Of a DNA stretch of 64,000 nt, positions 35,117 through 55,023 are shown one piece after another. Positions within the stretch are counted from its first letter, which is position 1. The number at the start of each line of letters is the position of its first letter. The notes below the pieces were generated by a model that made no database searches, was not told where the DNA came from, and saw only the letters and a list, made by a program, of their open reading frames with translations. The translations under genes were made by a program, and so were the position numbers. Origin of the DNA: Ethanoligenens harbinense YUAN-3 (GTDB lineage: Bacteria > Bacillota > Clostridia > Oscillospirales > Ethanoligenentaceae); assembly GCF_000178115.2 (NCBI RefSeq), contig NC_014828.1, positions 1,519,310 to 1,583,309 of the forward strand. Direction: 5' to 3'.

Positions 35117-35290
35117 TACTGTGATAGAGGCGCGTTTTTGATGAGTAGCCCGCCGGAGGTTGTTCGGAACCGAAGATGGCCGGCAAAAGGCAAAAACGCC
35201 GAAGGGAGCAGCGCCGGGCGGCTGCTCGCCTGGTTGCTTTGCAAACAGCGCAGCGACTGTCATCATGCGATTGATGGAGAGCTATCCACT
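35117..35290 (+). ncRNA. Lysine riboswitch (L box)
   Basis: The conserved L-box blocks appear in order: GATAGAGGCGCG (35123), GATGAGTAG (35139), ACGCCGAAGG (35198), GCGACTGTCA (35252) and GGAGAGCTATC (35275-35285). The first and last blocks pair as helix P1. It lies between a SigmaA promoter and a terminator upstream of asd-dapA-dapB, exactly the genes expected to be repressed by lysine. The rest of the 450-bp queA-asd gap holds nothing else I can identify. Confidence 0.93.
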
Positions 35291-35351
35291 TTGTTTCGGG
35301 CACAGAGCCCGTCCGCAAAGCGTCAGTGCTTCTATTATATTGCATGGACAG

Positions 35352-53889: not shown

Positions 53890-54107
53890 AGAGGTTTCGG
53901 CCGTATCGGATATTTTTATTACAGTATTAGTTTATCATGGTAAATCAAAAAAGTCAACCACCCCACAAGGGCATTGGGAAGAGCAGCGCATAGCCTGTGC
54001 ATAGAATCCATCCGGCAGGGTAAAAGCATTTCCCTGTATACACCCCCTTTTGTTCACACAAATTCCTTATTTATGTAAAAGAATCCCGTTGGATTTTACA
54101 TTTTCCC

Positions 54108-54135
54108 TTGATTTTTGCTGTTCACAGCGTATAAT
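54108..54135 (+). promoter_or_regulatory. Promoter of the NYN-domain gene
   Basis: TTGATT (54108-54113), 16 bases, TATAAT (54130-54135). The remaining sequence from 53890 to 54107 in this 460-bp divergent gap is AT-rich and shows no gene. Confidence 0.65.
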
Positions 54136-54141
54136 AATGAG

Positions 54142-54240
54142 TGTGAGAATGGTTCGTGGCCTTAGTGGCCCGGACTGTACAGATCTGCCGGAAAGACCTG
54201 ATTAGCTTTTTAGCTGACGGGTCTTTTAGACTTAGAGGAG
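54142..54240 (+). ncRNA. Structured 5' leader of the NYN-domain gene
   Basis: The predicted 105-base leader contains GGCC-TTAGT-GGCC and a strong hairpin in which AAAGACC (54192-54198) pairs with GGTCTTT (54220-54226), with an inner TTAGC/GCTGA stem, followed by a short T-run and then the ribosome site AGAGGAG. It looks like a regulatory leader but matches no riboswitch class I can name. Confidence 0.4.
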
Positions 54241-54247
54241 TATTTTT

Positions 54248-54853
54248 ATGCAACGTGTAATGGTCTTCATCGACCAGTTGAACTTCGAGATCGCCCTGTT
54301 AAATTACTACCGCGATAACGGCTCCCAAGCCCCCCGCCTGGATTACAACGCCATCCCTGTTGAACTGACCAAACTGCTTCCGGGAGAAAACCATCTTGTC
54401 AAGACATTTCTGTTTGTCCCCAAGCCCGATGAGTTCCTGATGAATCTTCCCCGCTGGCAGCATTACAGCAACTGGATCAACGGCATGAAAAACCAGCATT
54501 ATTTTACCGTGATTGAAGGGTCGTATGTAGCGCGCCAGATTGATGAATCCATCCCCATGGATGCGAACGATCCCCGCTCATATTACAAAGAAGAAAAAGG
54601 TACAGATATCAACATCGCCGTGCATGTTCTGACTAAAGGCTTCATGAACGCATACGATACAGCGCTCATTCTGAGTGGAGACAGCGATTATGTGACGGTG
54701 CTGGATATCCTAAACATGATCGGCAAAACGACTGTGATCGCCGGCGTCAAGGGCCAGAACATCTCCAAACTCCGCAAAAGCTGTGACGACAGTTATATCA
54801 TAGATGATACATTCTTTCAGAAATGCCTGCGGGACGATAGCAAACGCATCTGA
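54248..54853 (+). CDS. NYN domain protein (LabA/DUF88-like, PIN-fold ribonuclease family)
   Basis: A 201-residue protein with the NYN fold: Asp9 in VFIDQLNF, a second Asp in EKGTDINIAVHVL and the pair SGDSDYVTVL form the acidic site typical of metal-dependent RNases in this family. VIAGVKGQNIS and SYIIDDTFF complete the domain. The substrate is probably RNA. AGAGGAG precedes ATG 54248. Single gene with its own promoter and leader. Confidence 0.85.
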   Translation: MQRVMVFIDQLNFEIALLNYYRDNGSQAPRLDYNAIPVELTKLLPGENHLVKTFLFVPKPDEFLMNLPRWQHYSNWINGMKNQHYFTVIEGSYVARQIDESIPMDANDPRSYYKEEKGTDINIAVHVLTKGFMNAYDTALILSGDSDYVTVLDILNMIGKTTVIAGVKGQNISKLRKSCDDSYIIDDTFFQKCLRDDSKRI

Positions 54854-54971: not shown

Positions 54972-55023
54972 ACCGGAAGGGCTTGTTGCCTGTGCAGAGC
55001 AGGTGGCAAGCCCTTCCGGTTTG
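54972..55023. terminator. Long hairpin in the 500-bp gap between the NYN and msrAB genes
   Basis: ACCGGAAGGGCTTG (54972-54985) pairs perfectly with CAAGCCCTTCCGGT (55007-55020), with an inner CCTG/CAGG pair, followed by TTTG. It can end the NYN transcript. The rest of 54854-55352 has no convincing gene; the open frames on both strands have no family resemblance or ribosome site. Confidence 0.6.

Follow-up and report, generated by a model that had tools for sequence, protein, structure and literature searches.

Predicted hairpin leaders ahead of HEC-09-type NYN ribonuclease genes and their possible role in a mobile RNA-RNase module

An NYN-domain RNase gene of Ethanoligenens harbinense YUAN-3 lies directly behind a leader that is predicted to fold strongly, which raises the question of whether this RNA acts on the RNase itself, on the expression of its gene, or on neither.

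The leader and the NYN gene in the window

The initial annotation had placed a promoter and a leader of about 100 bases ahead of the gene in the window (the whole stretch of 64,000 nucleotides that was analysed), and this layout is borne out. A sigma-70-type promoter-like site, TTGATT-16-TATAAT, is located at 54108-54135 (+) with 10/12 matches, a match that is weak on its own because a scan of 3 kb contains 5 sites of that quality as compared with 3.0 expected. With transcription presumably starting near 54141, the structured leader RNA (54136-54247, +) would be approximately 107 nt long. The sequence 54141-54250 folds at -40.5 kcal/mol, compared with -26.6 (sd 3.2) for dinucleotide shuffles (z -4.37), of which 0/200 are as good; repeat runs gave z -4.13, and z -3.79 for the last 110 nt. 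Among the 105 mechanically listed window ORFs of at least 150 aa, whose upstream folds have a mean z of -0.33 (sd 1.25), the upstream fold of the NYN gene ranks second (z -3.76).

The strong structure that had been proposed just before the ribosome site is present, but its description as a single bipartite hairpin does not hold, and two hairpins are predicted instead. Hairpin 1 (HP1; 54151-54176, +) consists of GGUUCG, an inner hairpin and CGGACU in the predicted fold, and hairpin 2 (HP2; 54191-54227, +) contains 16 pairs and one bulge and ends 20 nt before the ATG at 54248. The linker UUUAGACUU (54225-54233, +; assigned by eye) and the ribosome binding site AGAGGAG (54234-54240, +) lead to the RNase gene, which encodes 201 aa at 54248-54853 (+). 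About 120 nt past its stop codon, the terminator scan finds a strong terminator-like hairpin of 20 bp (54973-55019, +), which is the probable end of the NYN unit. HP2 is not called a terminator by the terminator rule, and a role in binding or in translation control is more likely for it than one in termination. No tandem repeats were found in 54000-54300.

The suggestion that the leader fits no known class also stands: Rfam gave no match over the window leader at the gathering score and none at E<=10, and none of the NYN leaders searched against Rfam 15, those of the window and of sets of 9 and 13 loci, reaches the gathering score of any family. The leader of locus L028 matches Thr_leader below the Rfam threshold (30.1 vs 55 bits). 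Elsewhere in the window, a lysine riboswitch is found at 35117-35292 (+) with 110.8 bits.

The identification of the gene product as an NYN-domain RNase is confirmed by a match to PF01936 of 46.4 bits (cut-off 24.2; E 7.8e-12), the sole match in a Pfam search up to E 1. The AlphaFold2 model has a mean pLDDT of 91.0, and the best solved structures found by Foldseek are VPA0982 (2qip, E 8.0e-10) and the MARF1 NYN domain (5yaa_C, 1.6e-5); a sequence search of solved structures returned three matches at E of about 0.6, which were taken as chance. The acidic residues of the protein include D9, E116, D120, D145 and D147. In the alignment, D9 is present in 6/6 rows reaching that position, D145 and D147 in 7/7, and D120 in 6/7, and we take these conserved acidic residues to have a catalytic role. 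The protein of L004 (L004:3001-3588), from the same genus, has Tyr where the others have Asp120; it may be catalytically impaired, or the Tyr may be a sequence error.

The window protein is probably a distant relative of the PADLOC protein HEC-09, with a weak match of 58.9 bits (E 1.3e-16) to the model PDLC04163, which has no curated cut-off. A family search at 1e-15 gave no match in the organism's own genome. The corresponding scores are 39.4 bits for L010, 66 bits for L022, 42.6-183 bits for five plasmid relatives and 28.4 for L053, and the plasmid members overall range over 42.6-324.4 bits; the top score belongs to a Thermus oshimai gene sited after a helicase-related gene. In L044, L052 and several plasmid matches, the HEC-09-like NYN protein bears the annotation 6-hydroxy-3-succinoylpyridine hydroxylase or 3-monooxygenase, apparently in error.

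Leaders of the close relatives and their carriage

Two clades of close relatives were compared. In clade 1, readable leaders are available for the window, L004, L005, L006, L009, L010, L018 and L019, and a further member, L007, lies on a contig that lacks leader sequence; the aligned proteins, a comparison that leaves L018 and L019 aside, are 45-85% identical to the window protein. Clade 2 consists of L021, from a Carboxydocella plasmid, and L022, the proteins of which are 72% identical to each other. The leader sequences differ strongly between relatives, and 10/10 clade-1 and clade-2 leaders fold below their shuffles (z -2.6 to -5.9). In every clade-1 leader, one or more 5' hairpins are predicted, and a strong hairpin stops 15-28 nt short of the start codon. 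Upstream of the hairpins, TATAAT is present in 6 of the 7 other clade-1 leaders (L004, L005, L009, L010, L018 and L019), and L006 has TAAACT at this position. By eye, the motif UUAGAY follows the last hairpin in five of the ten leaders (window, L004, L006, L010 and L018), takes a looser form in L019, L021 and L022, and is absent from L005 and L009.

Within an outer stem, L009, L010, L018 and L019 have in common the HP1 motif AGAUGGYU..ARCCUGCCU, and a search of 8 genomes or records revealed 4 occurrences, all ahead of an NYN gene. An RNA-first scan with this motif returned 28 viral stretches, of which 2 contain an NYN gene, both on known contigs, and the remaining 26 were taken as chance; the outer-stem filter was too loose for these stretches, as 9 passed and 7 of those are without NYN.

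The two clade-2 leaders have four hairpins each, all with loops of 7 nt. The GGUUCG...CGGAC of the window HP1 resembles GGUUCGGACU of their first hairpin, but is interrupted by the inner hairpin. Both clade-2 loci carry, downstream of the NYN gene, a convergent two-hairpin element, L022:1415-1500 (+) and L021:2040-2120 (-), which folds at z -6.3 and -8.5, respectively, has 7-nt loops like those of the leader hairpins, and may represent either a small RNA of its own or simply terminators. Across the 12 loops (8 leader and 4 convergent), position 1 is a purine in 12/12, position 3 is U in 11/12, and positions 5 and 7 are G and A in 12/12 each. Stems that vary around loops that stay alike form a pattern such as would be expected of repeated sites for one protein.

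Base-pair changes were counted in seven hand-aligned hairpin comparisons, a set that does not extend to HP1 of L009/L010 or of window-L004, nor to hairpin 3 of L021/L022; in these seven, 62 of 77 pairs are the same, 8 have one-sided and 6 two-sided changes, and 1 is broken. For HP2 of the window and L004, the 13 aligned pairs divide into 10 same, 1 one-sided, 2 two-sided and 0 broken, and for hairpin b of L021/L022 the counts are 4, 2, 1 and 0. Six of the 25 predicted pairs of L039/L044/L051/L052 have a two-sided change, all in HP1, where 8/52 cells are broken or gapped; in HP1 of L009/L010/L018/L019, the figures are 2 of 10 pairs and 3/40 cells broken. The MAFFT clade-1 alignments were not used for the HP2 counts because the HP2 arms are out of register in them, and the last helix of the A4 alignment (columns 98-125) was not trusted. 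Compensatory changes thus exist but are few, and these small numbers were counted without a phylogenetic test. The initial annotation had named a lack of conservation or of compensatory changes in related leaders as the outcome that would speak against it; instead, related NYN genes have a comparable structure ahead of them, with some, though few, such changes.

The window-type NYN gene is rare. It is present in 3/59 of the nearest genomes (counting the own genome and one weak partial match), in 1/391 genomes of a class-level search, this being the own genome, in 3/297 genomes of the family of one carrier, with the carrier counted, and in 5/398 genomes of a phylum search at 1e-12 (counting the own genome and two partial matches). 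Searches of phage records with the window, L022 and L010 proteins gave no relative at the limits used, and viral scans with a single protein (window, L006 or L022) gave none, whereas a viral scan with an alignment as query gave two matches. On a viral contig, the gene of L009 has an integrase-like gene close by; that of L010 is inserted in antisense orientation among capsid- and tail-type genes, and that of L005 likewise runs opposite to the phage structural genes around it, between head-tail-like and prohead-protease-like genes; these neighbour names are readings of the translations, not database results. The neighbours of the gene differ between the window and L004, although the proteins of these two members of one genus are 85% identical. 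Given these phage-gene, integrase and differing-neighbour settings, the unit seems to travel together with its promoter and leader. Other family members reside on small plasmids, and, with the L032 protein as query, tblastn detects similar stretches in 263 plasmid records.

Leaders across the HEC-09-type family

A strong hairpin shortly before the NYN gene is also predicted in Klebsiella, E. coli, Salmonella, Xanthomonas, Pseudomonas, Leptospira, Granulicella, Pararoseomonas, Novacetimonas, Nitratireductor and Thermus, and these plasmid-family leaders usually have an additional hairpin further upstream. The median z of 27 NYN leaders is -4.06, compared with -1.07 for 45 control genes drawn from those records (Mann-Whitney p 6e-7), where n=27 overstates the independence because the similar pairs L029/L048 and L051/L058 were kept. 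A hairpin of -12 kcal/mol or lower near the start is present in 26/27 leaders vs 25/45 controls (p 1e-4), a weaker separation than that by z. The best hairpin ends 5-34 nt before the start codon in 24/27 leaders, and in several of them its lower stem extends toward the ribosome site.

A perfect stem of 7 bp or more that ends at most 45 nt from the start is found in 19/27 leaders vs 8/45 controls (Fisher p 1.1e-5), and the same rule applied to the window ORFs selects 8/105. The 8/27 leaders that fail it are those of the window, L005, L006, L010, L019, L045, L050 and L055; the window leader fails because HP2 is bulged. A terminator-like hairpin ahead of the RNase gene is present in 15/27 leaders vs 0.4 expected in shuffles, a rule that was compared with shuffles alone and not with the control genes, and 12/27 leaders, including that of the window, fail it. 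A promoter scan of 13 plasmid leaders gave sites with at least 9/12 matches in 5, weaker ones in 4 and none in 4; for the plasmid loci, a shared transcript is therefore presumptive. Two leaders, L045 (z -0.05) and L055 (z -0.25), have no unusual structure despite a HEC-09 score, and L030 is also weaker (z -1.7).

The set of 27 leaves out L040 and L047, which have nearly the L028 leader, L041 (unreliable start, z +1.31), L007 and L049 (no leader sequence), the unannotated L057, and L091, which was examined later and has z -1.65, though by eye a hairpin stands ahead of its ribosome site. Also left out are L053, L054 and L056, weak or unconfirmed as HEC-09 (z -0.90, -4.04 and -2.22), and L003, L023 and L024, partial matches of the general NYN type. 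The controls were chosen by hand, and the start codons throughout are those annotated or chosen by the authors. A first set of 38 genes had a mean z of -1.76 and a lowest value of -12.76; for the final 45, three genes were dropped (L040 2130-, L041 2228- and L047 1117-, two of them strongly structured) and 10 were added.

Two further structures were observed in these records. The divergent helix-turn-helix gene of small enteric plasmids has a strong upstream fold, with z -7.9 for L028:941 (-), -6.2 for L032:2125 (-) and -7.6 for L040:2130 (-), and stems of 20 bp occur upstream of this gene in L028 and L032. In the Alkalihalophilus plasmid locus L054, where the NYN gene is a partial family match, a very strong hairpin with a U-run precedes the start (L054:1100-1233, z -4.04), from which the RNA-NYN layout may reach beyond HEC-09.

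Possible function of the leader RNA

As read from the sequences, the loci have the anatomy of a putative module, which recurs at the majority of the examined HEC-09-type NYN genes and is carried by phage contigs, plasmids and varied chromosomal sites. The initial annotation had suggested that a PIN-like RNase might bind its own leader. We tentatively interpret the loci, at somewhat short of an even chance, as a mobile module in which the NYN RNase binds the leader RNA of its own gene and is held in check by it. A promoter would drive an RNA of approximately 100-170 nt with two to four hairpins, placed directly ahead of the NYN endoribonuclease gene and probably on one transcript with it. The hairpins may be where the cognate NYN protein binds, and perhaps processes, the RNA; in the RNA-bound state, the protein would stay inactive and limit its own expression, like the toxins held by RNA antitoxins in type III systems and AbiF-RCd22. 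If the balance were upset, for example by a phage that shuts off host transcription, free NYN could cut RNA and stop the infection.

The closest described layout is that of the phage-borne RCd22-abiF pair of Clostridioides difficile, in which a promoter is reported to be followed by an RNA of 132 nt containing two hairpin motifs, a terminator, a ribosome site and the toxin gene; the RCd22 RNA is reported to bind and neutralise AbiF, an Abi_2 protein linked to Cas13 ancestors, and a similar RNA-terminator-toxin layout is described there for type III loci (PMC12373285). The window family shares with this account the order of promoter, hairpin RNA, often a terminator, ribosome site and RNase, but its enzyme is an NYN protein with no Abi_2 domain, its leaders have no Rfam match, and binding is in its case presumed. 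Type III toxin-antitoxin systems (ToxIN, CptIN, TenpIN and AbiQ) likewise combine an RNA and an RNase gene in one unit, and 15/27 relatives, not including the window, have a terminator-like hairpin between the two. The fold, however, is NYN and not that of ToxN/AbiQ-type toxins, and the window leader has no tandem repeats, whereas clade 2 has four hairpins with matching loops.

HEC stands for "Hma embedded candidates" (PMC10855318), and HEC-09, a candidate defence protein of this kind, probably has its protein family in common with the window protein; the PADLOC model describes the protein alone. HEC-09 is reported to correlate with phage susceptibility in one paper (PMC12447246). Among the matches listed, chiefly from non-subscription literature, no title or abstract describes a leader RNA for the HEC-09/NYN family, and the term "NYN" is absent from the main text on DefensePredictor (PMC13092281). 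A CRISPR-associated NYN ribonuclease of Bacteroides fragilis, reported to cut single-stranded RNA with Mn2+, is likewise an NYN protein in a context of prokaryotic immunity; it differs in being part of a CRISPR locus, and the abstract and introduction of that paper mention no leader RNA (PMC11346440).

The main rival, which we consider unlikely on the whole, is a purely cis-acting leader without a trans-acting antitoxin, in which HP2 and the lower stem would set translation or read-through and the effector would be NYN itself, by feedback cutting of its own leader, or another factor. RNases are known to control their own mRNAs, as with the rne, rnc and pnp leaders and Regnase-1, and RNase E and RNase III exert feedback by cutting their own leaders; here, too, the RNase's own mRNA bears hairpins that it could recognise. 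The position of the best hairpins near the start, with several lower stems near the ribosome site, agrees with such control, as does the occurrence of the HP1 motif solely ahead of NYN genes in the 8 genomes or records searched, and the 12/27 leaders that fail the terminator rule imply no separate RNA. For the window, the cis-only reading gains weight because no terminator is called in its leader. However, the four-hairpin arrays and the convergent element of clade 2, with their matching loops, exceed the needs of a simple attenuator, and the terminator-like hairpins of the other 15 leaders also count against cis action alone.

Those same hairpins could instead reflect generic insulation or mRNA stabilisation with no specific recognition, as mobile cassettes often bear a terminator against outside read-through or a 5' hairpin that protects the mRNA. 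The 4/13 scanned plasmid leaders without a clear promoter upstream and the strongly structured controls on the same small plasmids (L028 941-, L032 2125- and L031 2198+) are in keeping with this explanation, which nevertheless appears rather improbable: in the window and clade 1, the hairpins follow a promoter-like site, the HP1 sequence is conserved in four leaders and covaries in another four, and perfect-stem hairpins near the start are enriched over same-record controls. A ligand riboswitch or a leader-peptide attenuator would suit a structured leader of this length, and a short ORF does begin at 54149, but by eye this ORF has no ribosome site before it and encodes no conserved peptide, and it was rejected as a leader peptide. 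Since none of the leaders searched reaches an Rfam gathering score and the sequences vary strongly among relatives, this last explanation is very improbable.

The preferred reading, RNA restraint of the NYN RNase, leads to a broader proposal that is possible and more doubtful, namely that HEC-09-type NYN proteins and their leaders constitute a new, widespread, type III-like RNA-antitoxin class of anti-phage systems, extending from Thermus to enterobacterial miniplasmids and gut-bacterial prophages, with fast-changing hairpin arrays matched to their own nucleases. The loci are short (approximately 1 kb or less) and self-contained, which makes the matching of RNA and RNase directly testable. If the gene usually stands behind a structured RNA, testing the HEC-09 protein alone or from a foreign promoter would omit part of the system. 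If true, the proposal would add another unrelated nuclease fold to the RNase-type toxins restrained by RNA, beside the ToxN-like and AbiF-type enzymes.
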